The notes: generated by a model from the letters alone, not told the origin. Numbered from the stretch's first letter, positions 3,147 to 54,637 are shown. The stretch is DNA of 64,000 nucleotides from a bacterium (GCA_024742285.1 JANSYR010000005.1:248001-312000); one strand, 5' to 3'. Numbers and translations are program-made.

Positions 3147-4315
3147 CGATGGACCCCCACCAGCCGGGCGCGGAGACGGACGCCCTCGGCTTCCGGCATG
3201 AGATCGAGCGTCAACGCAGAGAAGAGGTCGCCGGCATGAGGCGCGTTCGGATTCGCGCCGGGCCGGGCCCGGTCGTCGCGGGCGATGCGCGCGAGGTCCA
3301 CGGTCAACGCGTGCGCGCCGTCACCCGCGGTCGCGCGCGTCGGACTGGCCACGTCGGGCGGACCGAGGGCCGCGGCGAGGGCGCGCTCCTGCCAGGCGAT
3401 CACGAGGGCTTCCGGGGTCACCGCCCAGCAAGGCGCGAGCCCCGGAAGCAGCGGGAGCTGGTCGAAGCAGGCGCCGTCGCTCTCCCCTCCATCGGCGAGC
3501 GTGAAGCGCTTGGGCGTGCGTCGGATCGGCCAGGTCGATTCGAGCTGGGTCAACGCCTCGTCGAGGGCCGTGCGAATCGGACCGGCGCCGCGGTGGTGCA
3601 GGGCACCGATCGCGAGCGGGATGTCCTCTTCTCCCCGCGGCGGGAGGAACGCGAGCTCGACGGTGCCGCGCAGGAGGGCGCCTTCGAGGAGACGGCCCTT
3701 GAGCGCGAACATCCGATCGGCCTGACCGCCTTCGGGCAGGAGCCGGGCGAGGTGGAGTCCGCCGGCGGGGCGGAGGCGTGCGTAGATGAGGGCGTCCGCC
3801 GCGCGCAGGGCCGGGTCGGCCGGTGCCTCGGCCGAGGGGATCAGGAGATCGAGCGTGCCCTCGTCGGAAGGTCGAAGGAAGCCATCGAGGTCGACGCCTC
3901 CCTCGGCGGAGGTCGCGAGGGTGAGCTCGAGTCGTCCGCGCTCGCCGACCGGCCAGAGGAGGATTCCCTCCGCCGTACCCCGTCGCGTGTTCGCGAACGC
4001 GATGCGTTCCGCGGCTTCGCCGGTCGTGTCGTCGAGGCAGGTCGCCTCGGGAAGTGTGTCGTCGTCGGGGGCCGCGTCGAGCACGAAGCCCGCCTGCTCA
4101 CACCCGTCGAGGGTCTCCTGGAGGGCCGTGGCGCGTCGCGCGACCGGTGTCCCCACGAGTGTGCCAGCGGCCTCGAGCAGCGGGGCCAGGGCACCGACCT
4201 CCACGACGAGTAGGGGCTCGCGAAGTCTCGGATCCTCGTCCGGCGTTCGGCTGCATCCGACCGCCCCGACGGCGATCGCCACGCACACGAGTCCCCAAGT
4301 CGATCGCACGAGCAT
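3143..4315 (-). CDS. Hypothetical lipoprotein
   Basis: The protein has about 390 residues, a signal peptide and a lipobox (AVGC, Cys21). I recognise no family. It is rich in Asp, Glu, Leu and Ala, with recurring GxL/LxL strands such as the GRLEL and GTVEL segments, suggesting a beta-rich periplasmic domain. Four further cysteines in the first hundred residues and in DGACFD and APCWAV could form disulfides. An AGGAGG Shine-Dalgarno is ideally spaced for a TTG two codons before ATG 4315, so the true start may be TTG 4321. It lies 79 bases downstream of the histidine kinase and overlaps the phosphatase-fold lipoprotein by four bases, so it probably belongs to the same envelope unit. Confidence 0.6.
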   Translation of the reverse strand: MLVRSTWGLVCVAIAVGAVGCSRTPDEDPRLREPLLVVEVGALAPLLEAAGTLVGTPVARRATALQETLDGCEQAGFVLDAAPDDDTLPEATCLDDTTGEAAERIAFANTRRGTAEGILLWPVGERGRLELTLATSAEGGVDLDGFLRPSDEGTLDLLIPSAEAPADPALRAADALIYARLRPAGGLHLARLLPEGGQADRMFALKGRLLEGALLRGTVELAFLPPRGEEDIPLAIGALHHRGAGPIRTALDEALTQLESTWPIRRTPKRFTLADGGESDGACFDQLPLLPGLAPCWAVTPEALVIAWQERALAAALGPPDVASPTRATAGDGAHALTVDLARIARDDRARPGANPNAPHAGDLFSALTLDLMPEAEGVRLRARLVGVHR

Positions 4316-4394
4316 CGGCAAGACCGCCTCCTTCTCGTGCAAGGAATCGGCAAGGCGCCCGCAGATCTTGAGCTTTCCAGGATCGGCAGCGGTC

Positions 4395-5645
4395 TCAGCG
4401 CGCCGGGAGCTCGAGGACGAAGCGGGTGCCGCCCCCCTCGCGCCCCTCGCAGCGGATCGAGCCGCCGTGGCGCTCCGCGATCTGGCGGACGAGGGCGAGC
4501 CCGAGACCGATTCCGCCCTCGGCGCTGGCCTCGCCTTCGGGCCGGTAGAAGGGCTCGAAGATCCGTCCGCGTTCCGCCTCCGGGACGCCCGGCCCGCGGT
4601 CGGAAACGGTCAGGCGGACGCCGTCGGACGTCTGTGCGACCTCGACGTCGACCGGTGGGTCGCCGTGTCGCAGCGCGTTCTCGATCAGGTTCCGGGTGAG
4701 CCGACGGAGCAGGCGCCGATCGCCCTCGACGGCGCCCCCCGTTCCACCGACCTCCACATCGGCGCGCCCCGCGGCCTCCTCGGCGACGAGGGCGAGCAGG
4801 TCGACGGGACCGCGCTCGATCCGGGCTTCCGGCGCGTCGAGTCGACTTGCGACCAGGAGCTCGCCGATCAGGTCGTCGAGCTCTTCGATGTCCCGGTCCA
4901 TCCGATCGAGGAGCTCTTCGCGCGGCCCGTCGCGCAGGAGCTCGAGGGCCATCCGCACGCGGGTGAGGGGCGTGCGGAGCTCGTGGCTCGTGTTCGCGAG
5001 CAGTCGCGTCTTGTCCTGGACGAGGGCCTCGATCCGGTCGGCGCTCGCGTTGAAGGCATGGGCGAGGTCGGCGATCTCGTCTCGTCCCTCGATCGGGGCC
5101 CGGTGGTCGAGCCGGCCCGCGCAGAACGTGTCGACGTGGGACTGGAGGCGCTCGAGCCGACGGGTGAGTCGTCGCGCGAGGGGGAGGGCGGCGATCGCGG
5201 TCGCCGCGGCAAGTAGGGCGAGGGCGGCCAGCAGGGGGGCGATCGGGCGGCGGGGATCGCGGTCGTCGTCGATCGCGAGGCGTCGCCCGTCGCTCAGTTG
5301 CAATAGAAGAAAGCCGTGTGGACCGGGACGGTCGATGAAGCGGCTGCCCTCGCCGGGCGGGAGCGGGATCGACTCCCCGATCTGGACGAGGGGCGTCCCG
5401 TCGCGATCGAAGACGGAGAGATTCATCTCGAGGGGCTCTGCGAATGCGGAGACGACGCGCTCGAGGTCGGCCACCGGCGCATCCGCGGGCGGCAGGACGG
5501 ACTCCGCGAAGGTCTCGAGCTCGCCGAGCCATTCGTTGGGATCACGGTCGCGATCGAAGGCCCAGACGAGCAGCCCGATCCCGATCATCAGCAGGACGAG
5601 GACCAAGATCAGCGCGAGCCAGAACTGCAGATAGAGCCGCCGCAC
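4395..5645 (-). CDS. Sensor histidine kinase, CpxA/RstB type
   Basis: This 416-residue inner-membrane kinase has TM1 at about 7-29, a periplasmic sensor of about 105 residues, TM2 at about 134-156, a HAMP linker to about 210, HisKA with the phosphorylated His221 in HELRTPL, an N-box around 319-326 (NLIENALR), a DRGPGVP box with Asp349, and a GGIGLGLA box near 377. All catalytic elements are present. It presumably phosphorylates the regulator encoded one base upstream (stop at 5647, start at 5645). The short sensor and the adjacent CpxP/Spy-like gene point to extracytoplasmic stress sensing; the exact stimulus is unknown. Confidence 0.9.
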   Translation of the reverse strand: MRRLYLQFWLALILVLVLLMIGIGLLVWAFDRDRDPNEWLGELETFAESVLPPADAPVADLERVVSAFAEPLEMNLSVFDRDGTPLVQIGESIPLPPGEGSRFIDRPGPHGFLLLQLSDGRRLAIDDDRDPRRPIAPLLAALALLAAATAIAALPLARRLTRRLERLQSHVDTFCAGRLDHRAPIEGRDEIADLAHAFNASADRIEALVQDKTRLLANTSHELRTPLTRVRMALELLRDGPREELLDRMDRDIEELDDLIGELLVASRLDAPEARIERGPVDLLALVAEEAAGRADVEVGGTGGAVEGDRRLLRRLTRNLIENALRHGDPPVDVEVAQTSDGVRLTVSDRGPGVPEAERGRIFEPFYRPEGEASAEGGIGLGLALVRQIAERHGGSIRCEGREGGGTRFVLELPAR

Positions 5646-5646
5646 G

Positions 5647-6360
5647 TCAGTCGCCCGAGTCGCCGTCCTGACGGCGTGCGAAGACGTAGCCCGCGCCGCG
5701 CACGGTCAGCAGGCGGCGCGGTTGCCTGGGGTCGTCTTCGATCGCGGCCCGGATGCGGGAGACGTGGTTGTCGATGCTGCGATCGAAGGCTTCGAGGGCG
5801 TGTCCGCGGAGCCCCTGCATGATCTGGTCCCGCGAGAGCACCCGCCCGGCGTTTTCGGCGAGCAGGCAGAGCAGCGCGAACTGGTGGGAGGTGAGGGCGC
5901 AGCGCTCGCCGTCGAGCAGGACCTCCCGCGCGTCGCGCAGGATCTCGAGCCGGCCGAAGCGCAGGCGATCCTTCGGCTTCGCCGACTCGTCGGCGACCTG
6001 GGTGCGGCGGAGGACCGCGCGGATCCGGGCCAGCAGCTCGCGGGGACTGAACGGCTTCGCCAGGTAGTCGTCGGCGCCGATCTCGAGTCCGACGATCCGG
6101 TCGGTCTCGTCGCCGCGCGCCGTCAGCATCACCACGGGAATGGCCGAGCATTCGCGGATCCGACGGCAGACCTCGAAGCCATCGAGGTCCGGGAGCATCA
6201 CATCGAGGATCACCGCGTCGAAGCGATCCGTCTCGACCGCTTCGAGGCCGAGGTCCGCGCGTGCCCGCGACTCGACTTCGAGAGCATGGCCCGAGAGATA
6301 CTCCTCGAGCATCGCCGACAGCGTCTCGTCGTCGTCGATGATGAGCACGCGGACCGTCAT
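5647..6360 (-). CDS. OmpR/CpxR-family response regulator
   Basis: The protein has 237 residues. The receiver domain (1-120) has the acidic triad at residues 9-11, phospho-acceptor Asp53 in LDVMLPD, Thr80 and Lys102 in AKPF. The C-terminal winged helix (about 135-230) is of the OmpR/PhoB type and ends near RGAGYVF, the usual wing. It binds DNA and should control the envelope genes around it; a target is probably the region upstream of the CpxP-like gene (6947-7065), although I could not see a clear direct-repeat operator there. Gene order regulator then kinase with a one-base gap indicates a single transcript. Confidence 0.92.
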   Translation of the reverse strand: MTVRVLIIDDDETLSAMLEEYLSGHALEVESRARADLGLEAVETDRFDAVILDVMLPDLDGFEVCRRIRECSAIPVVMLTARGDETDRIVGLEIGADDYLAKPFSPRELLARIRAVLRRTQVADESAKPKDRLRFGRLEILRDAREVLLDGERCALTSHQFALLCLLAENAGRVLSRDQIMQGLRGHALEAFDRSIDNHVSRIRAAIEDDPRQPRRLLTVRGAGYVFARRQDGDSGD

Positions 6361-6448
6361 CGTGTCTCCAGGCCGGGGGCGGCGGGGTCGGAAACGGAAG
6401 GGTACCCGGCCAGAGGGGCCGGGTCCCTTCGCAACGCCCGACGTGCGC

Positions 6449-6946
6449 TCAGTGCCAGCCGCGGCGTCGGCGATGCTTCGCGAGGCGTTCTTCGACCCGC
6501 TGGCGCTGCTCCGGCGTCAGGACTTCGAGGACATCGGCGAGCCGCGTGGTCACGACCTGACTCATGCGCTCGGCGCGATCGAGGTGCTTCACGCGAAGTG
6601 CCTCCATCGCGTCGCGATCGATCGTATCGGCGGTGAGCAGCGCGGCGAGCTCGGTTCGCAGGTCGTCGCGCGGACCGTGGGCCGCGGCGAGCTCGTCGAC
6701 GGCGTCCGCGACGATGGCCTGGATGCGCTCGGTCTGTTCGTCGGTGCCGTCGAGGCGCCACATCACGTGCTCGACGCCCTCGGCGGCGTGCTCCTTGATC
6801 TCGTCGATGTCCGGACGCTCCCGGTGGTGGCCACCGCAGCCGGTCACCACGTTGGTCATCAGGAGCAGCGCGGCCGTCATCGCGACGAGGGAGAGCGGCC
6901 AGGCGATCAGGCTGCGTTTCGTGGGTTCGGTGCTCGGTTCGGTCAT
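6449..6946 (-). CDS. CpxP/Spy-like periplasmic stress protein (putative lipoprotein)
   Basis: This 165-residue protein has a membrane segment at about 15-35 followed by VTGC, so it may be lipid-anchored, unlike soluble E. coli CpxP. The mature part is entirely helical and highly charged. It carries LTPEQR at 143-148, matching the LTxxQ motif of the CpxP/Spy family, and ends in a run of Arg, His and Lys with a terminal GWH. Family members are periplasmic chaperones and, for CpxP, inhibitors of the sensor kinase. Its position first in the unit, 88 bases before the regulator, supports a feedback role. Histidines in GCGGHHRE could bind metal, so metal sensing in the style of CnrX/ZraP is an alternative. 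Confidence 0.75.
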   Translation of the reverse strand: MTEPSTEPTKRSLIAWPLSLVAMTAALLLMTNVVTGCGGHHRERPDIDEIKEHAAEGVEHVMWRLDGTDEQTERIQAIVADAVDELAAAHGPRDDLRTELAALLTADTIDRDAMEALRVKHLDRAERMSQVVTTRLADVLEVLTPEQRQRVEERLAKHRRRRGWH

Positions 6947-7065
6947 GGCGATTCCTCCGCTGGACCCTCTCCGGGGGGTGGCCCCTGTGGGGTCTCCTGG
7001 GTACGAATCGAAGGCTATGCGTCGGATCTCTCTCGCCGATGTCTGCTTTGTAAAGATGTGTGAAG

Positions 7066-8460
7066 TCAGGTCGACGAAGGGTCGTCCGCCACCTGCAGCG
7101 GGACGCCGCAGACCCAGGTCTGGACGACTCGGATCTGCGAGAGGGCGTCCCGCGCTTCGGACCAGGGACGATCCAGCAGGCAGAGGTCCGCTTCGTCTCC
7201 TTCGCGGAGTCCGTCCGCCGGAGAAGAGCCGTCGGTCGGCAGGAAGCGGCGCAGTGCTTCTTCCGGGAAGATCCGCTCGTCTTCGCCGAGCATGTGTCCG
7301 GAGGGGGTGCGTCGTTCGACCGCGGCTTCGAGGGCGGCCCAGGGGTCGGGCTCGCCGAAGGGAGCGTCGGTGCCGAAACGCAGCGGGACGTCGGCGTCGA
7401 GCCAGCTCTTCACGCGGTAGAGGTGGTCCTGATCCCGGGGATCTACGTCGCGCCGATAGTCGTCGCCGCGTTCGCGGACGAAGTTTGGCTGCGTCACGAC
7501 GGTCGCGCCGAGGCGCTGGATCGCCTGGATCGCCTCCGGCGGCGCGACCGACGCGTGCTCCATGCGGTCGCCCGGTCGGGCGCCGGTCGCTTCGAGGGCA
7601 GCCAGCGCGAAGTGGAGTTCGGTGCGCGTGACGGCGTGGAAGGCGACGTTCCGGTCCGCGTCGTGGGCCGAGCGGATCCGGGCGACGAGCGCGTCGAGGT
7701 CGGGCAGCGCGGGCTCGTCGAGCATGATCTTGTGCGCCCCGACCGGGACGTCGCTGTCGTCCGCTTCGAGGCCGAGGGTGCCCATCACTTCGAGTCGTTG
7801 CGGCAGGTCGCCCGAGGCATGGGCCGCGGCGAGTCGTGCGTAGTCGTCGGCCCCGTTGCTGGCAGTGCAGTCGGTGATCCGGGTGACGCCCCAGGCGGCG
7901 AGACGCCGGCCGACTCGAGCGAGGTCCGGAGGCGGCGCCGGGGGCAGCTGGTCGCGGAGCCAGACGTCCGCGCGAAAGAGGCGCCCGGTGATCCGACCGC
8001 GGTCGTCGCGTTCGAGTCCGGGGCGATCGTCCTGGCCCATCGCGAGGGACTCGATCGCCCTCGAATTGAGGAACCACATCACGCCGCTTCGGTGTTGGAT
8101 GCGGACCGGCACGTCGTCACGCAGGGCGTCGAGCGCGTCGCGATCGAGCTCCCCGGCGACGGATTCGAAGTAGCCGGCCCCCCGAATCCAGCCGTCGATC
8201 GGGGAGGCGGTCGCGAGGGCCTGGGCGAGCGCATCCCGATCGCGCACCGAAGGCGGCCCGCACCGCACCGATGCGAGCGCGGCCGCGAGGGACTGCACGT
8301 GGAGGTGGTGGTCCTGGAGGCCGGGCAGCAGCGCCCGTCCCGCCGCGTCGAAGCTCGCCCCGTCGTAGGCGTCGAGGTCGCGACCGAGCTCGACGATCCG
8401 TCCGTCGCGGATCCGGAGGTCGCGCCGGACGCCATCGATCTCGGCCTCGCGGATCAACAT
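7066..8460 (-). CDS. Amidohydrolase family protein (YtcJ-like)
   Basis: This 464-residue metal-dependent hydrolase starts with a small beta-sandwich, followed by the HxH metal motif in DHHLH (52-54), a candidate carboxylated-lysine strand with GAHKIMLDE near 240, FHAVTR, the EHAS histidine strand and the catalytic Asp in FGTDAPF. The layout matches YtcJ/AtzC-like amidohydrolases, which cleave C-N bonds in amides or cyclic ureides; the substrate cannot be read off. It overlaps the preceding CoA-transferase gene (start 8460, upstream stop 8454) by seven bases, so the two are co-translated, suggesting a shared catabolic route. The frame remains open far upstream, but ATG 8460 is the first start consistent with the family's N-terminus. 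Confidence 0.82.
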   Translation of the reverse strand: MLIREAEIDGVRRDLRIRDGRIVELGRDLDAYDGASFDAAGRALLPGLQDHHLHVQSLAAALASVRCGPPSVRDRDALAQALATASPIDGWIRGAGYFESVAGELDRDALDALRDDVPVRIQHRSGVMWFLNSRAIESLAMGQDDRPGLERDDRGRITGRLFRADVWLRDQLPPAPPPDLARVGRRLAAWGVTRITDCTASNGADDYARLAAAHASGDLPQRLEVMGTLGLEADDSDVPVGAHKIMLDEPALPDLDALVARIRSAHDADRNVAFHAVTRTELHFALAALEATGARPGDRMEHASVAPPEAIQAIQRLGATVVTQPNFVRERGDDYRRDVDPRDQDHLYRVKSWLDADVPLRFGTDAPFGEPDPWAALEAAVERRTPSGHMLGEDERIFPEEALRRFLPTDGSSPADGLREGDEADLCLLDRPWSEARDALSQIRVVQTWVCGVPLQVADDPSST

Positions 8461-9872
8461 GCCCCGCGCCTCCAGGCGTCGAGGCTCGCGGGCGAGGGGG
8501 GTGCGAGGGGAGGCGCCGTCCCGTTCGCCTCGCGGATCCGCGGAGGCGCGACCGGCGTCTCCACGCCTGCCTCCCGAATCACATGGTCGGCGCCCACTCG
8601 ACCGACCTCGATCTCGGCGGCCTCGATCGGCGTCGCCGCGGAGTGCGCCGCCACGTCCCGGAGCGAGACCTCGAGCAGGCCGCCGCGCCCGTTCGACGCG
8701 CAGGCCAGGGCGAGGACCGCCGCATGGACGCCGGTCAATGGATCCGCCAACGCGTCCCCGCAGAAGCAGGGATCGTCTTCCGCCGCACCGGGCGCCCAGC
8801 CGAGTCCCGCCGCGATGGCCGCATCGTCGCCGAAGGCGATCCATTCGTGGGCGCGGCCATAGCCGGTGATCGAGAGCCAGATCCGGCCGGGGACCTCTGC
8901 GACCCAGGTCTCGGCGTCGAACCCGAGCTGGCGCAGCGCCCGGGGTCGCGCGCTCTCGACGACGAGGTCGGCCTCGTTCAGCAGCGCTTCGAACGTCGTC
9001 CGATCGCTCGCGTCGTGCAGGTCGAGGGCCGCGCCGTGCTTGCCGGCGTTCATCCGGTCGAAGAAGACGGCCGGGCCGAGCCGCGCGCCGTCGGGTCGTT
9101 TCGGACTCTCGACCTTGAGGACGGAAGCGCCCGCGAAGGAGAGCAGCGAGGTGGCGAGGGGGCCGGCCCAGAGGGTCGAGAGGTCGAGGACGCGGAGCGG
9201 GCGTTCGCGCGGCGAGCCTTCGGTCGTTCCCGAGAGCGAGAAGAAAGAGGGGGTCGCCAGCGGTGCGCGCGGCGCGGGCGCGCCCGCGAGTCCGATCAAG
9301 CGCGCGCGTTCGATGACGGGCGCCGCGGCGCGTTCGCGAAGGACGTCTTCGATCACGCGCCACCCCTGGTCGCTCTCGTGGAGCGCGTCCGGGAGGTCGA
9401 TCTCGAGCCAGGCCGGAACGAGTCGCCAGTCGTCGAGGCGCGGCAGCTGGATCGCGAGCCAGTCGTCTGCTGTGCGGAGCAGACGCCCCGCGCCACCCGC
9501 CGTCGTGCGCCCGTGGCGTGTGTGGCCGAAGCCTGCAGCGCGTTCGCCCAGGAGTCCGCGCCAATCGAGCCGACCCGCTGCCAGGGCCGCCGACATCGCT
9601 TCGAGGAGCGCCCCCGCGCCGAGCGCGGCGCTCGCGACGGCGCCGGGCGCGAGGCGCGGCGGCCCGTCCCTCGGTCCGCTGAGTGCCATGGCGCCGGAGG
9701 CGGCCCAATCCGCCGCGGCGGAGGCGCTTCCCAGCGGCTTCGGGTCGGTCGGCCCGGGGACGTCGAGGTCGTGCGCGGCGAGCGTGCTGCGAAGTGTTTC
9801 GGCGTGTCGCCCGGCCGGTGTGGTCGGCACGGATCCGTGAGTGATTCCGGGCGCTTGGGAGGGATGCGGCAT
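8454..9872 (-). CDS. CaiB/BaiF-family CoA-transferase with degenerate N-terminal half
   Basis: The protein has 472 residues. The last 255 or so form the classic N-terminal part of a type III CoA-transferase: RVLDLSTLWAGP, ASVLKVESP, NAGKHG, the ITGYGR strand, and LADPLTG carrying the likely catalytic Asp that forms the acyl anhydride. The first 210 residues resemble the distal part of the same fold (GRTTAGGAGRLLRTADDWLAI) but are eroded and precede the core. This permuted look is known in some actinobacterial and deltaproteobacterial homologues. It should move CoA between carboxylates. ATG 9872 follows a GGAAAAG Shine-Dalgarno; an in-frame start further up at 9932 is possible. It is divergent from the gene at 10061. 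Confidence 0.8.
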   Translation of the reverse strand: MPHPSQAPGITHGSVPTTPAGRHAETLRSTLAAHDLDVPGPTDPKPLGSASAAADWAASGAMALSGPRDGPPRLAPGAVASAALGAGALLEAMSAALAAGRLDWRGLLGERAAGFGHTRHGRTTAGGAGRLLRTADDWLAIQLPRLDDWRLVPAWLEIDLPDALHESDQGWRVIEDVLRERAAAPVIERARLIGLAGAPAPRAPLATPSFFSLSGTTEGSPRERPLRVLDLSTLWAGPLATSLLSFAGASVLKVESPKRPDGARLGPAVFFDRMNAGKHGAALDLHDASDRTTFEALLNEADLVVESARPRALRQLGFDAETWVAEVPGRIWLSITGYGRAHEWIAFGDDAAIAAGLGWAPGAAEDDPCFCGDALADPLTGVHAAVLALACASNGRGGLLEVSLRDVAAHSAATPIEAAEIEVGRVGADHVIREAGVETPVAPPRIREANGTAPPLAPPSPASLDAWRRGAC

Positions 9873-10060
9873 GTCTTTTCCGAAGGCTCGGCAGGTTAGC
9901 ATTCGGAATCTGGAATCCGTATGCTCGCCCATCGCTCAAGCGCGGTCGGGAGAGCGGGGGCGGCGTCCCCAGGCACGACCCGACCGGAACAACCGAACCC
10001 GAAGGTCGCTCGATCCAGCAATAGGGTCGACCGATCCGATCATTTCCAAGGAGTCATCGA

Positions 10061-10366
10061 ATGGCGGTGTTGAAGGCCGGTAGCCGACTGAAGAGCGCGG
10101 TGTGCAGCTCGGAGCTGATGGTGGTCGTTGCGCCCGAGGGCGACGTGAACCTGACCTGCGGTGGCGCGCCCGTGATCGAGCTCGGTGCGGACGGCGCGGG
10201 CGAACTCGACCCGGCCCACAAGGGCGGGACGCAGATGGGCAAGCGCTACACGAACGAAGCCGGTGACATCGAGATCCTCTGCACGAAGCCGGGCGAGGGG
10301 AACCTCGCGGTCGACGGCACGGCGCTGGAGATCAAGGGCGCCAAGCCCCTCCCGTCCTCCGACTAG
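10061..10366 (+). CDS. Small conserved-looking protein next to acyl-CoA ligase
   Basis: This 101-residue soluble protein has no signal peptide and a good AAGGAG ribosome site 7 bases before its ATG. It begins with a basic stretch, then SAVCSSELMVVVAP, LTCGGAP and a late ILCTKPG, so three cysteines are spaced through predicted beta strands; the C-terminus is acidic. I recall similar small proteins beside FadD-type ligases in actinobacteria, but cannot name a family or function. It lies 155 bases before the ligase on the same strand, so co-transcription is plausible. The cysteines could bind metal or act as a redox or acyl carrier site; this is speculation. Confidence 0.6.
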   Translation: MAVLKAGSRLKSAVCSSELMVVVAPEGDVNLTCGGAPVIELGADGAGELDPAHKGGTQMGKRYTNEAGDIEILCTKPGEGNLAVDGTALEIKGAKPLPSSD

Positions 10367-10367
10367 C

Positions 10368-10425
10368 GTCGGAAGACGGCAGGGGAGGCTGGCTCTTGTT
10401 GGAAGGGGGGAGCCCCGCTTCCGAC
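10368..10425 (+). promoter_or_regulatory. Inverted repeat between small gene and ligase
   Basis: GTCGGAAG at 10368-10375 is exactly complementary to CTTCCGAC at 10418-10425. An inner GGCTC/GAGCC pair gives a branched or extended hairpin just after the stop codon at 10364-10366. No T-run follows, so it is a weak terminator at best; it may stabilise the upstream mRNA 3' end or attenuate read-through into the ligase. Confidence 0.35.
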
Positions 10426-10520
10426 TCCCTGACGGCCTGTTGTGCTTCGGTTGCGCCTCCGCCCGCATGAAGCTTCTGGGATGACGCGTTGCGGGTGCTG
10501 CGGCGCATTGTGAGACGATC

Positions 10521-12062
10521 ATGAACTTGATGATGCTTCTGGAGATGGCGGCGGGGGCCTTCGGGGACCGCGTCGCGTTTCAGAATGGCGACGACCGGCT
10601 GACCTATCAGCAGCTCTTCGACGCGGCGGGGGCGCTCGCGGCGGATCTGTCGGACGGGCGGACGAAGCATCTCGCGATGCTCGACGAGAGCAGCCTCGCG
10701 CTTCCGGTCGCGGTCTTCGGTGCGTCCTGGGCCGGGGTGCCCTTCGCGCCGCTCAACTACCGCCTGACGGACCCCGAGCTCGACTCCCTCGTGAGCCAGC
10801 TCCAGCCCGGGCGCCTGGTGACGGAGCCCGACCGGCTGGCCCGGCTCGGGGACAAGATCACCGGAGACGGGAGCGACTTCGTCTCGGTGCTCACGACCGG
10901 CGACCTGCTCAGGGCGGCGCGGGCCGACGGCGCCGCGCCGCGCGAAGAACCGTGGTCGATGGACATGGACGACACGGCGATCCTGCTCTTCACGAGCGGG
11001 ACGACCGGTGCCCCCAAGGCCGCGGTCCTTCGCCAGAAGCACCTCGTGTCCTACGTACTCGGCTCCGTCGAGTTCATGGGGGCGGACGAGAACGACGCGT
11101 CGCTCTCCTGCGTCCCTCCCTACCACGTCGCCGGCATGGCCGGGATCGTGAGCGCCGTCTACTCCGGCCGTCGGGTCGTCCAGATGCCGAGCTTCACCGC
11201 CGAGAGCTGGATCGCGACCGCGCGTCGGGAGAACGTGTCCCACGCGATGGTCGTGCCGACGATGCTCGCGCGGATCGTCGAATCCCTCGAAGGAGAGAAG
11301 GACGCGGGGATGCCCAACCTGCGGAACCTCGCCTACGGCGGTGGAAAGATGCCGCAGTCGGTGATCGAGAAGGCGATGGATCTCTTCCCCGGGACCAACT
11401 TCACGAACGCCTACGGCCTGACCGAGACGAGCTCGACGATCTCGCTGCTGGGTCCCGACGACCATCGCGACGCGATGTCGAGCGACGAGCCGGAGGTGCG
11501 GCGGCGCATCGTCTCCGTGGGTCAGCCACTGCCGACCATCGAGGTCAGCATCCGCGACGTCGACACCGAAGAGCCGCTGCCGGCGGGCGAGCGCGGCCTG
11601 ATCTTCGTGCGCGGCGAGCAGGTCTCCGGCGAGTACCGCGGCAAGGGCAGCCTTCTCGACGAAGAGGGTTGGTTCAACACCCGCGACGGCGGTTACCTCG
11701 ACGAGGGTGGTTACCTCTTCCTCGAAGGCCGGATGGACGACGTGATCGTGCGCGGCGGCGAGAACATGTCGCCGGGCGAGATCGAGGACGTGCTCCTGGC
11801 CCACGAGGCCGTGGCCGATGCCTGCGCGATCGGCGTCCCGGACGAGCAGTGGGGCGAAGCCGTCGCGGCGGCCATCGTGCTGAAGGCCGGCAAGGAAGCC
11901 TCGGTCGCCGAGCTCCAGCAGTGGGTCAAGGATCGACTGCGCTCGTCGCGAACGCCCGAACGCATCGATTTCTGGGACGAGCTCCCGTACAACGAGACGG
12001 GCAAGCTGCTCCGGCGCAAGGTCCGCGAGGCCTTCGCCCAGGAGACGGGCAGCGGCGACTAG
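10521..12062 (+). CDS. Acyl-CoA synthetase (AMP-forming, FadD-like)
   Basis: This 513-residue member of the ANL adenylating superfamily activates a carboxylic acid with ATP and joins it to CoA. Visible motifs are the P-loop FTSGTTGAPK (157-166), AYGLTE near 296, the hinge region GYLFLEGRMDDVIVRGGEN around 399-417, and the catalytic lysine of NETGKLLRR near residue 494. The length is normal and all key residues are present, so it should be active. Similarity in shape to FadD3/FadD13-type ligases suggests fatty, steroid-derived or other aliphatic acids, but chain length cannot be judged. The crotonase and CoA-transferase follow on the same strand with gaps of 25 and 55 bases, making this the head of a catabolic operon. 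Confidence 0.9.
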   Translation: MNLMMLLEMAAGAFGDRVAFQNGDDRLTYQQLFDAAGALAADLSDGRTKHLAMLDESSLALPVAVFGASWAGVPFAPLNYRLTDPELDSLVSQLQPGRLVTEPDRLARLGDKITGDGSDFVSVLTTGDLLRAARADGAAPREEPWSMDMDDTAILLFTSGTTGAPKAAVLRQKHLVSYVLGSVEFMGADENDASLSCVPPYHVAGMAGIVSAVYSGRRVVQMPSFTAESWIATARRENVSHAMVVPTMLARIVESLEGEKDAGMPNLRNLAYGGGKMPQSVIEKAMDLFPGTNFTNAYGLTETSSTISLLGPDDHRDAMSSDEPEVRRRIVSVGQPLPTIEVSIRDVDTEEPLPAGERGLIFVRGEQVSGEYRGKGSLLDEEGWFNTRDGGYLDEGGYLFLEGRMDDVIVRGGENMSPGEIEDVLLAHEAVADACAIGVPDEQWGEAVAAAIVLKAGKEASVAELQQWVKDRLRSSRTPERIDFWDELPYNETGKLLRRKVREAFAQETGSGD

Positions 12063-47190: not shown

Positions 47191-47925
47191 ATGCGACGGA
47201 ACTTTTCGATTCGGACGGCGGTGGCGCGCAGCGCGCTGCTGGTCGGTCTGATCCTGGGAGCGGGGCCGGCCCTCGCACTCCCGGCCAACTTCAGCCCTTC
47301 GGGCGGCTTCGACACGACGAATCTCGGCGGCCTGCCGACGGTGACGATCGGCGCCGAAGACGCGTTCGTGGGCGTCGGCGAAGGGGCGCCGGGGGCCTTC
47401 GACGTGAACGTCGAAGGATCGATGTCGCTCTGCATCCTCTTCAACGACGACGTCTGTCGAGCGAACACGGGCGGGATCAACGGGCCCTTCAGCGTGATCA
47501 TGACGCTGACGGTGACGGCCGTGAACACCGAAGCCCTCGGTTCGCCGTTCACGATCTTCTTGAGCGCGCTGTCCTCGGACTACGCCGCCAACGAGGTTGC
47601 GGTCGAATTGGACCCGACGCTTCCCGCCGACCTGGACACGACGGCGGTCCCGGACTTCGTCTGGAACGAGAGCTTCTCGCCGGCCGTGCGGGTCACCGAT
47701 GCCCTCTTCGGTCTCGACTACGTGGGGTATACGGTCGACGGCGTCGGGGACTCGCTCACGCTCCGCTACGACGTGTCGCGCGCACCGACGGCCTTCGGAA
47801 CGCCCCAGCTCTCCACGAATGCCACCTCCGCGGTGATTCCCGAGCCGGGGACGGCGCTGCTGATGGGCCTCGGCCTGGCCGGGCTGGCCTTCGCGGGGCG
47901 TCCGGTCGAGCGAAGGACCAACTGA
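47191..47925 (+). CDS. PEP-CTERM sorting domain protein
   Basis: The 244-residue exported protein has an N-terminal signal (hydrophobic about 13-30, cleavage after ALALP) and at the C-terminus the exosortase recognition domain: IPEPGTALL, a hydrophobic membrane span of about 18 residues and a basic tail RPVERR. The middle is beta-rich and Gly/Thr/Asn-rich, with no catalytic motif, as usual for these surface or extracellular-matrix proteins. Such substrates are processed by an exosortase (EpsH), not seen in this window, and are generally tied to exopolysaccharide. It is followed by the TPR-barrel gene after about 170 bases on the same strand. Confidence 0.88.
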   Translation: MRRNFSIRTAVARSALLVGLILGAGPALALPANFSPSGGFDTTNLGGLPTVTIGAEDAFVGVGEGAPGAFDVNVEGSMSLCILFNDDVCRANTGGINGPFSVIMTLTVTAVNTEALGSPFTIFLSALSSDYAANEVAVELDPTLPADLDTTAVPDFVWNESFSPAVRVTDALFGLDYVGYTVDGVGDSLTLRYDVSRAPTAFGTPQLSTNATSAVIPEPGTALLMGLGLAGLAFAGRPVERRTN

Positions 47926-48093
47926 CGCGATCGGGTCGGACCTGGTCGCCAAACGCCACACCCGGATGGAGTCGACGGGCTCGGACTGCCTCGACCCTTC
48001 GGACCACCGATCGTGGCGCCAGAGCGAACCGCGATGGCTACCTTGTCCGAGGCGTCGTCGGATGAGTCACCGACCCGGCGACCGAGATTGAGA

Positions 48094-49794
48094 ATGGGGG
48101 AAACCGTGCGGAAGCATTCGGCGATCAGAGGCCTCGCAACGGGCATTGGGTTGAGCTTCGCGCTCTCGCTGCCCGGCGCCGTCATGGCGGGCCCGGTCGA
48201 GGACGCGATGAGCCAGGCGCGCCAGGACGTCGAGCAGGGCCGATGCGAGCAGGCCGCGGCCCGACTACGCGGCATCAGCGGACTCGAGAGCCGCGCCGCG
48301 CTCCTCGCCGGGCAGTGCCAGATCCGCACCGGGCTCTATCCGGAGGCCCTGTCGAGCCTCGACCGCATCCGCGGGGCCGACGATCTCTCCCGGGAGCAGG
48401 TGGGCGACGTCGAGCTCTACCGCGGCGTCGCGCTCTATCACCTCGAGCGCTACACCGAGGCGGCGGCGGCCCTCGACAGCGCGCGTGGCCTCACGTCCGA
48501 AGAGGCCCAGCTCCAGCTCTACACCGGTCTTCTCTTCCTCCGTGACGGCGACAACGACCGGGCGGCCCCGGCCCTCGAAGCCGCGAGCCGCCTCGAGCCC
48601 CGGCTGACGGAGCCGGTCGCTTCCTACTACGCCGGCCTCGCCTGGCAGGGCTCCTCCGAACGAGAGCGCGCGCGTAACGCCTTCCAGCGCGTCGTCGATC
48701 TCGACGGCGACGGACCGTGGGGCAAGGAGGCGGCGAAGCTCCTCGAATCGACGGAGCTCTTCCCGTACTACGTGCGTGGTCGCGTCGGCGTCGAGTACGA
48801 CGACAACGTGCTGCTCCGAGGCAGCGTGACCGAGACCGGCGCCGCGATCCTCGACATCGCCGGTGAGAAGGACTGGCGCGGCGTCTGGGACATCGACGGC
48901 GGCGTGCGACTCTGGCAGGCCGAGGACGGCCAGACCGACGCGGGGCTGACCGCCGGCTACTCGGGCAACGCCCACGTCGACCTCGACGGCCTCGATACCC
49001 ACTTCATCCGGACCGGCGCCTACCTGTCGCGACGGCTCGGGGCGCGGACCGTCGCCCAGGCGCGCTACCAGTTCGGCTACGCGCACGTCAAGAACGAGAA
49101 CGACTACCTCTTCGAGCACCTCGGCCAGCTCTCGCTTACGCACACGTGGCAGAAGAACGGGACGACCTTCGTCTTCGCGGACGTCGTGAGCGACGATCTC
49201 CGGTTCCGGAACCGCGAGGTGACGAACAGCGCGGGCGGTGGCGCGGGCAATGCCTGCGGCGTGGCGCTGGCCCCGGGCGAAATCGGCTGTAGCCCCGCCG
49301 GTGTCGAAGAGCGCAACGCCCGCGATCGCGACGGGATCGGCTACGGCGCCGCCGTCGAGCACCGCTACCTCGTGCCCCTTCCGAACGGCCTCGACGATCT
49401 CTTCGAGGAGCTCGAGATCGGCGGCGGATACCGCTTTGGCTACTACGACTCCGAAGGGGACGAGTGGCAGCACTTCGCGAACACGCTGAGCGCGATCCTC
49501 GAGGTCGAGCTTCCCCTCGACTTCTCGGTCCTGACCCGCGGCAGCTACACCCGGCGCGACTTCGACAACCCGTCCACTTTCCCGGACGCGGAGACGGCCG
49601 GACTCGAATATGCCCTCTCGAACGACGACCGCGAGGAGAACGAGTGGATCTTCTCGGGGGAAGTCGTGAAGGGCATCACCGACAATTTCTCGGCGAGCGT
49701 CGCCTACCAGTACCTGGACAACGACTCGAACCGGGACGCCTACAACTACGACCGCCACATCGTGGGCGGCTATCTGAACTTCCGATTCGACTGA
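48094..49794 (+). CDS. TPR plus outer-membrane beta-barrel protein (Slam/DUF560-like)
   Basis: The protein has about 566 residues. A signal peptide (cleavage near GAVMAG) is followed by helical TPR-like repeats (about 25-220; VDVEQGRCEQAA, YHLERYTEAAAALD, ASYYAGLAWQGS) and then a barrel of about 14 strands (230-566) with aromatic girdles, ending GYLNFRFD. This TPR-then-barrel order is that of Slam translocators that move lipoproteins to the cell surface and of related DUF560 proteins. Its actual cargo is unknown. ATG 48094 or GTG 48106 (GGGGGAA upstream) are both possible starts. It sits between the PEP-CTERM and Ala/Gly-rich genes in the same direction. Confidence 0.72.
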   Translation: MGETVRKHSAIRGLATGIGLSFALSLPGAVMAGPVEDAMSQARQDVEQGRCEQAAARLRGISGLESRAALLAGQCQIRTGLYPEALSSLDRIRGADDLSREQVGDVELYRGVALYHLERYTEAAAALDSARGLTSEEAQLQLYTGLLFLRDGDNDRAAPALEAASRLEPRLTEPVASYYAGLAWQGSSERERARNAFQRVVDLDGDGPWGKEAAKLLESTELFPYYVRGRVGVEYDDNVLLRGSVTETGAAILDIAGEKDWRGVWDIDGGVRLWQAEDGQTDAGLTAGYSGNAHVDLDGLDTHFIRTGAYLSRRLGARTVAQARYQFGYAHVKNENDYLFEHLGQLSLTHTWQKNGTTFVFADVVSDDLRFRNREVTNSAGGGAGNACGVALAPGEIGCSPAGVEERNARDRDGIGYGAAVEHRYLVPLPNGLDDLFEELEIGGGYRFGYYDSEGDEWQHFANTLSAILEVELPLDFSVLTRGSYTRRDFDNPSTFPDAETAGLEYALSNDDREENEWIFSGEVVKGITDNFSASVAYQYLDNDSNRDAYNYDRHIVGGYLNFRFD

Positions 49795-49872
49795 ATCGAA
49801 AAACCAGGAATCGACCAAGGCTGCCGATCGTCGCCGGACGATCACGTCGATCCAGACACGTGGAGAAATCCA

Positions 49873-50790
49873 ATGAGTCCGACTTCTCGAAATACGCTGA
49901 TCATCGGTGGCGGCCTGATCCTGATCGCACTGCTCTTCACTTGCGGGCCGCTGGGCGGCCTCTTCGGCGGTGACGAGGGCATGAAGACCGCCGTGGAGAC
50001 GCCGCCGGTCGCGGCCGGACCGCCCGAGCCGGCCGAGGACATCGAGGACACGGCGGCGGCGGCGACGTCCGGTGCCGCCGCGGGGGCCGGTGCCGGCGCG
50101 AACGGCGCAGCGGTGGCCGCACTCGGAGCGGGTGCGGCGGCCGGTGGTATGGCGGGTGCCGAAGACGGCGACGACACCGTCGTGGGGGCCGCGGGCGTGA
50201 TTCCCGGCGATGCCGGTTCGGCGGCTTCGGCCGGCGCGGGCGGGGCCTCGAGCGGCATCGGCGCGGCGGCGGCAGCGACGGCCGCAGGCGCAGCAGGCGC
50301 CGGGGCAGCCGCAGCCGCGGCCGGAGCGGGCTCGGGTTCCGGCGCGGGCGTGGCGACGACCGCGGCCGCGACGGCGACGCCGCCGGTTTCCGCGGGGCCG
50401 CCCGCGGCGCCGAACGCGCCCATGGTCCCGGTGGCCGACACCTCGGGCGCAGCGGATGCGGCGGCCGTCGCCGCGGCAGCTGCCGCCGGCGCGGCCAGCG
50501 CGTTCGACAACGCCTATGCGGGCCTCTCCGGAGACGGGATCGACGCGGCGGGCAAGGTCGTCGACCGCTTCGCGCCGCCCGTGGCCGCAGTGCCGGGGGG
50601 TGGACTCGCCATGAACGGGGCACAGCGATCGATCGGCTCTTCGATCGGTGGCGTTCGCCAGCCGTGTGACTCGCCCGGCGCCGGCTGTCGGAACGCCGCG
50701 GGCCCGCCGTCGATCCGGCCGGTGATTCCCGGACCGCCTCGCGGAGGCGCGGGGACCGGCACGGGGGGCGGAGGAAACGACCAGATCTAG
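49873..50790 (+). CDS. Ala/Gly-rich membrane-anchored low-complexity protein
   Basis: The 305-residue protein has a hydrophobic anchor at about 9-32 and no clear cleavage site. The rest is mostly Ala, Gly, Pro, Ser and Thr (for example GAGAGANGAA) with short acidic islands, a single Cys pair (QPCDSPGAGC) and a Gly-rich end. It is probably disordered, periplasmic or extracellular, and may span the periplasm as a flexible stalk. I recognise no family. GGAGAAA precedes the ATG. It is 78 bases after the TPR-barrel gene and followed by a strong terminator, so the three genes form a likely unit. Confidence 0.6.
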   Translation: MSPTSRNTLIIGGGLILIALLFTCGPLGGLFGGDEGMKTAVETPPVAAGPPEPAEDIEDTAAAATSGAAAGAGAGANGAAVAALGAGAAAGGMAGAEDGDDTVVGAAGVIPGDAGSAASAGAGGASSGIGAAAAATAAGAAGAGAAAAAAGAGSGSGAGVATTAAATATPPVSAGPPAAPNAPMVPVADTSGAADAAAVAAAAAAGAASAFDNAYAGLSGDGIDAAGKVVDRFAPPVAAVPGGGLAMNGAQRSIGSSIGGVRQPCDSPGAGCRNAAGPPSIRPVIPGPPRGGAGTGTGGGGNDQI

Positions 50791-50826
50791 GTCGGGACGA
50801 GCCCACTCGTTCCTCTTCGACGACGA

Positions 50827-50867
50827 GACCGCGTGGCGTGCTTCGGCTGCCACGCGGTCTTCTCTTT
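50827..50867 (+). terminator. Strong intrinsic terminator ending the surface-gene unit
   Basis: GACCGCGTGGC (50827-50837) pairs perfectly with GCCACGCGGTC (50849-50859) across an 11-base loop and is followed by TTCTCTTT. It lies 37 bases past the stop of the Ala/Gly-rich gene. Confidence 0.85.
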
Positions 50868-53392: not shown

Positions 53393-54637
53393 CTATTCGG
53401 CGCCGGCTTCCTCGACGGCCGCATCGTCCGCGTCCGCTGCGGCCCCTTCACTCGCGTCCGCTGCGGCCCCTTCACTCGCGTCCCGAGGCGCGTCTCCGGG
53501 CCTCTCGTCGAGGTCCGCGAGCTCGCGCCTCAGCTCCTCGACGAGATCCTTGTCCGGCTGGAAATCGACGCCGGGCACGTCGAGCGCCCGCCGGAAGAGA
53601 ACGCGCGCCGCTTCCGCATTGCCGAGCGCACGCTCGCTCCGTCCCGTCTCGGCGAGGACCGTTCGGGCCGCGTGCTCCGGGAGCTTCTCGTCCTGCGCGA
53701 GTCGGGCGCGTACCCCGTCGAGGATCGCGCGTGCCCGCGTCTCGTCGCCGCGCTCGGCGAGGATCGCGGCGAGCGTCGACTCGCCGACCGCGAGACTCGA
53801 GGGCGGAGCGCCGATGTCGTCGAAGAGCTGGTAGGCCACCGTGGCCGCCTCCTCCGCGGCGGCGAGGTCGCCCTGCGCACGCGCGATCCGCGCCCGGTAG
53901 ACCTGCAGCGAGGCGATCTGCGCCTTGTCGCTCGGCTGGACGGTGGTGGCGTCGGCAAGCGCGATCTCGATCGCCCGTCGCGCGAGGTCGTCGTCGCCTT
54001 CGCTGGTGGCCAACTGGGAGACTTCGTACGCCAGCTCGAGTCGTTGCGCGCTGGCCGCGTCCTGCTCGGCCGAGGTCAGCGCCACGCGGAACAGGGGCAG
54101 CTGCGATTCCTCGAGGCCTGCCTCGCGCGCCGCCGCCGTGCGGGTGCGCGCGTAGTACTTCGCGAGCTCCACCGTCGCGGGCCCACCGATCTCGGGCTCG
54201 GCTTCGGCTTCCTCGAAGAGGAGCTCCGCGAGGGCCTCGGCTTCCTCGGGACGCTGCAGGGCGACGAAGTCGAGGGCGAGTCGCGCGCGCATCCCGTGCA
54301 CCGCGCGCCGGCTCGCGCTGGAAGGCGGGCGTCCCTCGAGCTGGAGCGCGGCCTGGGCGAGGCGCTGCCGCGATGCATCGAAATCGCCTTCCTGTCGGGC
54401 CAGGCGCGCCTCGCGAGAGAGGGCGTACCAGGTCCGGAGCGCGCCCGCGTCCGACGTTTCGAGCGAAGCGTATTCGACGGCCTCCGCTCCCGAACCCAGC
54501 TCGTAGAGGATCGGCGCGGCCGGCGCGCCGGTCTCCGAGGCGGCTGCCGCGGCCTCGTCTCCCGGGTAGTTGAGCGCGGCGCAGCCGATCGCGGTCGGGA
54601 CGAGGCCAAGGAGGGGAAGGAGTCGCCAGGCCGACAT
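53393..54637 (-). CDS. TPR-like lipoprotein
   Basis: The 414-residue protein has a signal peptide and lipobox (AIGC, Cys19). The rest is all-helical with Ala/Leu/Glu-rich repeats of about 34-40 residues, consistent with tetratricopeptide-like repeats. A 24-base duplication encodes the repeated Asp/Ala/Ser/Glu/Gly stretch near the C-terminus. Partners are unknown. The Rieske gene starts upstream and ends one base before this gene begins (54639 against 54637), so they are co-transcribed. It is convergent with the diguanylate cyclase. Confidence 0.7.
   Translation of the reverse strand: MSAWRLLPLLGLVPTAIGCAALNYPGDEAAAAASETGAPAAPILYELGSGAEAVEYASLETSDAGALRTWYALSREARLARQEGDFDASRQRLAQAALQLEGRPPSSASRRAVHGMRARLALDFVALQRPEEAEALAELLFEEAEAEPEIGGPATVELAKYYARTRTAAAREAGLEESQLPLFRVALTSAEQDAASAQRLELAYEVSQLATSEGDDDLARRAIEIALADATTVQPSDKAQIASLQVYRARIARAQGDLAAAEEAATVAYQLFDDIGAPPSSLAVGESTLAAILAERGDETRARAILDGVRARLAQDEKLPEHAARTVLAETGRSERALGNAEAARVLFRRALDVPGVDFQPDKDLVEELRRELADLDERPGDAPRDASEGAAADASEGAAADADDAAVEEAGAE
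53432..53479 (-). repeat. Exact 24-bp tandem duplication within lipoprotein gene
   Basis: The 24-base unit beginning GTCCGCTGCGG occurs twice in a row (53432-53455 and 53456-53479) inside the lipoprotein gene. It encodes eight-residue repeats of acidic and small residues, keeps the frame, and could vary in copy number by slippage. Confidence 0.9.

Follow-up and report, generated by a model that had tools for sequence, protein, structure and literature searches.

A conserved gene unit joining a PEP-CTERM protein, a TPR-barrel protein, and a tail protein in uncultured Myxococcota-related bacteria

The stretch of DNA analyzed here, referred to as the window, comprises 64,000 nucleotides (GCA_024742285.1, JANSYR010000005.1:248001-312000) of a 6.5 Mb draft genome in 56 contigs, the close relatives of which are recorded as assemblies of uncultured Deltaproteobacteria or Myxococcota. 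At positions 47191-50790, three co-directional open reading frames on the + strand encode proteins of 244, 566, and 305 amino acids (P0001, P0002, and P0003), with intergenic gaps of 168 bp between genes 1 and 2 and 78 bp between genes 2 and 3. Genes were called by a codon-bias script written for this analysis, and individual gene boundaries may be inexact for this reason. The original prediction, made from the sequence alone, had placed a trio of PEP-CTERM, TPR-barrel, and Ala/Gly-rich genes here on the + strand, and all three frames were recovered at this place. The strong terminator it had assigned to the end of the unit is only partly right: the hairpin 3′ of gene 3 (about 50825-50862, + strand) is strong (z = −5.2 versus shuffled sequences), but the T-run behind it (TTCTCTTT) is weak, leaving a possible terminator. 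A gene for a TPR-like lipoprotein near the unit (53393-54637, − strand) is kept in the window's genus.

The product of gene 1 (47191-47925, + strand) has an N-terminal signal peptide, a body of about 190 amino acids, and a C-terminal PEP-CTERM signal. The sorting motif (residues 216-237, VIPEPGTALLMGLGLAGLAFAGR, 47836-47901) matched Pfam PF07589 with 24.4 bits, above the cut-off of 20.7 bits. A body HMM trained without the window's genus matched the protein after removal of the motif (E = 1.5e-8); built from the other genera with sorting motif and signal peptide removed, it matched no unrelated protein. Because the motif-less HMM still recognizes the protein of the window's genus, the proteins encoded upstream of the barrel in the relatives are orthologues and not arbitrary PEP-CTERM proteins. 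Only 1 of the 55 PEP-CTERM places in the window genome belongs to this body family, which argues against the neighboring barrel being a general PEP-CTERM exit; the remaining body-HMM matches in this genome mainly covered the sorting signal, not the body. In one genus, the sorting motif of the upstream partner has PEA in place of PEP (L119, L121, L122, and L123), possibly a variant exosortase signal.

Gene 2 (48094-49794, + strand) codes for a protein with a signal peptide, a TPR domain, and an outer-membrane barrel. TPR_16 was matched with 40.1 bits, and an AlphaFold model built from 26 sequences (mean pLDDT 86) predicts TPR-arranged helices at residues 34-219 followed by 14 strands at residues 225-565; it is on this predicted model that the barrel topology rests. 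The TPR domain (48193-48750), assigned to the periplasm, contains Cys51 and Cys75, both kept almost always across the family. The barrel (48766-49788) has a CymA/OmpG-like fold: taken alone, its closest solved counterparts were the channels CymA (Z = 21.4, 3.2 Å over 269 residues) and OmpG (Z = 20.0), and the top Foldseek match of the full-length protein was the cellulose exporter BcsC (E = 2.6e-12). A Slam structure was absent among the PDB matches listed, which says nothing against the same fold. With the TPR domain presumed periplasmic, the extracellular-side loops of the barrel had a mean information of 2.10 versus 2.31 for the strands. Such nearly equal conservation is atypical of a porin and fits a fixed surface partner.

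These structural matches bear on a reading that makes the barrel a porin or an exporter of polysaccharide, of the BcsC/PgaA/CymA kind, with the PEP-CTERM protein at the surface or in the matrix as a cap or anchor for the polymer or nutrient being exported. BcsC and PgaA likewise place a TPR domain before an outer-membrane barrel, BBP2_2 porin matches occurred in 11 of 25 barrel family members, and exosortase systems accompany exopolysaccharide production (PMC1569441). However, the window barrel has 14 strands where PgaA has 16 (PMC8406197), its TPR domain is short, its extracellular-side loops are conserved, no polysaccharide synthase was recognized among the near neighbors of the unit, and a polysaccharide exporter would have no obvious need for the tail family described below. 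We regard this channel reading as rather unlikely, though it deserves serious consideration.

In DUF560/T11SS proteins, a TPR domain is followed by a 14-strand barrel (PMC8406197), and the layout of the window barrel is thus that of the T11SS. The Slam/DUF560 layout proposed originally is borne out by the presence of both parts in one protein; with this TPR domain and a conserved partner, the protein also differs from a porin family lacking a TPR link to cargo, the contrary outcome that had been named. Further features in common with Slam/T11SS systems are the signal peptide, a secreted partner encoded alongside, and a weak similarity to SlipAM (PF04575). The SlipAM score of the window protein was 13.5 bits, below the cut-off of 22, and a plain Slam assignment was rejected on this ground; two orthologous barrels scored above that value, at 25.2 and 24.4 bits, and weak matches were obtained for 13 of 25 family members (best 4.2e-5). 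The unit is also unlike Slam/T11SS systems in its extra tail protein and in a partner that carries an exosortase signal. Known T11SS cargo has a C-terminal eight-stranded barrel (PMC12282271). No Pfam match at E ≤ 1 to such a barrel (TbpBBD or lipoprotein C) was obtained for P0001, nor a Pfam match to a TbpB-type C-terminal barrel for three of its orthologues. With a pLDDT of 58, the model of the gene 1 protein leaves room for a divergent T11SS-type cargo barrel, and a fold search with this low-confidence model gave no match at E ≤ 0.001.

The unit shares with PEP-CTERM/exosortase systems (EpsH, PrsT, TIGR03016) its PEP-CTERM protein, the exosortases of the genome, and a barrel end resembling TIGR03016. 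The TIGR03016 match of the window barrel comprised only the last 60 residues and, at 24.6 bits, lay far below the cut-off of 90.85; 11 of 25 family members matched weakly. No exopolysaccharide gene was recognized beside the unit, and TPR domain and barrel are fused here, whereas in the XrtA system the TPR protein (PrsT) and the barrel are separate proteins. The check for an exosortase elsewhere in the genome, suggested with the original prediction, returned four PF09721 matches above the cut-off. The window genome also encodes a type II secretion secretin. MYXO-CTERM/myxosortase proteins are likewise C-terminally sorted surface proteins from the same wider phylum, but their tag and protease differ and they leave by the T2SS (PMC11980579) rather than by a dedicated barrel gene.

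The third protein (49873-50790, + strand) has an N-terminal hydrophobic segment and an Ala/Gly-rich middle, and a Pfam and NCBIfam search assigned it to no family. At its C-terminus, family alignment revealed a conserved tail (VVDRFAPPVAAV...CDSPGAGC...PVIPG, 50557-50787), in which the CDSPGAGC motif (50665-50688, consensus CDxPGxGC) probably forms a disulfide loop. A tail HMM trained without the window's genus found P0003 with 26.9 bits (E = 1.6e-7), compared with 9.4 bits for the best of 2000 shuffles. In other genera, the third position is occupied by a secreted FecR-like-domain protein ending in the tail RFxPxDVAA...CDxPGxGC...PG, or alternatively by a short protein consisting of the tail alone. 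FecR (PF04773) gave no match in P0003 and 18-22 bits in four orthologues (cut-off 24). The tail that it shares with the FecR-like proteins of the relatives places P0003, as a divergent member, in a family of secreted proteins with a FecR-like domain whose hallmark is this C-terminal tail; the same homology led us to reject a unique low-complexity sequence. The disordered, anchored linker originally proposed is thus too simple a description: an N-terminal membrane anchor and a long Ala/Gly-rich spacer are seen in the window's genus, but the proposal missed the tail family, and in most genera the exported protein keeps no transmembrane anchor, as judged by eye. The tail HMM detected a protein of this family downstream of the barrel in 55 of 70 loci; of these 70, four have little downstream sequence, and two further tails were visible by eye.

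Barrel homologues were present in 50 of 60 relatives and in 59 of the 90 genomes covered from the class, which consists of uncultured, Myxococcota-related bacteria; the contig profile scan used a 10-row alignment, the 25-member alignment being too diverse. A phylum-wide search gave no barrel of the family at E ≤ 1e-25 in the sampled genomes outside the class. Across the 90 genomes, 52 of 56 full-body matches to the PEP-CTERM family lay directly upstream of a barrel gene on the same strand, at gaps of −16 to 237 bp, so that the genes are neighbors in relatives, contrary to the outcome named at the outset as speaking against a unit. The four exceptions were one contig end, one duplicated unit, and two cases without a barrel nearby. 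PEP-CTERM body and barrel co-occurred in 51 genomes, the barrel alone was found in 8 (in 4 of them cut by, or beginning at, a contig edge), the PEP-CTERM body alone in 1, and neither in 30 (Fisher's p = 2e-15, which, given the relatedness of the genomes, exaggerates the support).

Among the 48 evaluable loci that have no sigma factor downstream, the gene immediately upstream of the barrel encodes a PEP-CTERM protein of one orthologous family in 46, an arrangement far beyond chance. The tail gene is kept in 38 of 45 loci, compared with 20 of 44 for the downstream dienelactone-hydrolase gene; the PEP-CTERM/barrel pair outlasts local synteny. In several loci, unit genes overlap by 4 bp (a gap of −4 bp), which suggests translational coupling. 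The full unit was also found in a second order of the class (f12; L131 and L138). Genes that merely travel together without a common function would fit the conservation of the adjoining hydrolase and methyltransferase in some families, but the persistence of the trio across changing flanks and two orders, and the joint loss of PEP-CTERM body and barrel, make passive synteny highly improbable. Linkage, co-occurrence, and orthology of all three proteins are established by these data, which support the three genes as a conserved unit and the PEP-CTERM protein as the dedicated partner of the barrel. An open frame for a PEP-CTERM body beside a subtilase gene, with no barrel, was observed in one locus (L182, G038, about 5442-7816).

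A gene for a YkuD protein (L,D-transpeptidase) immediately precedes the unit in 17 of 48 loci (e.g. L089, L090, L091, L098, L099, and L100) and is missing from the window's genus except for one divergent locus (L072). Together with the inner-membrane anchor and long spacer of the third protein in the window's genus, this gene would suit a structural tether between the outer membrane, the peptidoglycan, and the inner membrane that transports little or nothing. Since YkuD is missing from most loci, including that of the window, and a tether leaves the dedicated PEP-CTERM partner unexplained, we consider this function quite improbable.

In the barrel tree, a clade of 24 of the 75 barrels contains loci with barrel, tail protein, ECF sigma factor, zf-HC2-like anti-sigma factor, and subtilase. 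This branch retains barrel and tail and usually lacks the PEP-CTERM gene; the barrel is therefore not bound to PEP-CTERM cargo everywhere. PEP-CTERM partners occur on the basal branches as well as in each of the two large clades, a distribution that points to an ancestral PEP-CTERM partner. That genes for a sigma factor, an anti-sigma factor, and a subtilase take the place of the PEP-CTERM gene here suggests that barrel and tail form a module open to reuse. The window genome itself has such a paralogous unit (L068, G000:C1:144000-162000, 4139-9376) with genes for TPR-barrel, tail, ECF sigma factor, zf-HC2-like anti-sigma factor, and subtilase, in which the end of the anti-sigma protein resembles a subtilase propeptide by eye. 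A more distant TPR-barrel of the same genome (L078, G000:C7:28000-44000, 5923-11009) adjoins a CHASE2 protein (GAF and HD-GYP) and a FecR-domain protein (63.6 bits), and distant TPR-barrels of L152 and L155 likewise adjoin a CHASE2 protein and a FecR-domain protein.

By analogy with FecA/FecR/FecI, barrel, tail/FecR-like, and PEP-CTERM proteins could sense the state of the surface and signal to an ECF sigma factor. This would be in line with the FecR-like domain in the third protein of the relatives, with the sigma-factor branch, with two loci of that clade in which a PEP-CTERM protein and a sigma factor occur together (L055 and L137), and with the FecR and CHASE2/HD-GYP neighbors of the distant barrel. 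The unit of the window, however, has no sigma factor, the FecR matches of the orthologues remain below the cut-off and are absent from P0003, and the barrel is without TonB-receptor features. Envelope sensing therefore appears improbable for this unit.

PEP-CTERM proteins are believed to stay in the inner membrane until an exosortase cleaves them, and their route across the outer membrane was described as unclear in 2025 (PMC12188702). Where a T11SS-like TPR-barrel has a PEP-CTERM protein of its own as neighbor, the simplest reading is that the barrel receives this partner and either displays or translocates it, with the tail protein as adaptor. The PEP-CTERM protein would be exported by Sec and stay at the inner membrane, retained through its C-terminal signal, until released by exosortase; the TPR-barrel protein would then receive the body at the outer membrane and either let it through or keep it on the cell surface. 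The third protein may act as a periplasmic accessory, its RFxPxDVAA...CDxPGxGC tail probably docking on the TPR groove or the barrel mouth; in the window's genus, where it is tied to the inner membrane, it could bridge both membranes. From gene linkage, co-occurrence, fold, the two orthologues passing the SlipAM cut-off, the conserved loops, and the four exosortases, we infer that the proteins form a complex, that the tail docks on the TPRs, and that the PEP-CTERM protein is displayed at the surface or translocated. The subthreshold SlipAM score, the lack of a detected T11SS cargo domain, the channel-like closest barrels, the alternative exit that the T2SS secretin could offer to PEP-CTERM proteins, the sigma-factor branch mostly devoid of PEP-CTERM genes, and the single body-family member among 55 places count against it. 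On balance, our tentative interpretation, at somewhat less than even confidence, is that the barrel serves as a dedicated station in the outer membrane for an exosortase substrate of its own, which it displays or translocates, and that the tail protein docks on the TPRs. More speculative, though still plausible, is the specific version in which a Slam-like TPR-barrel serves as a dedicated translocon or display platform for a PEP-CTERM rather than a TbpB-type cargo, and in which the tail proteins represent a new class of adaptor.

A literature search restricted to papers available without subscription retrieved none that joins PEP-CTERM with FecR or with "type 11 secretion". The parts of the unit are of known kinds; the literature searched does not appear to report their combination, the tail family, or the orthologous partnership. 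Most T11SS proteins are without known cargo, a point named as open (PMC12282271), and the unit would extend the T11SS-like barrel family past its known cargo types. If a Slam-like barrel does take PEP-CTERM cargo, this would be, within the literature searched, the first proposal of an outer-membrane route specific to a PEP-CTERM protein. With a PEP-CTERM protein that has its own conserved barrel and periplasmic partner, the question of outer-membrane crossing becomes a three-gene experiment, and the unit provides a testable answer to how PEP-CTERM proteins reach or cross the outer membrane.
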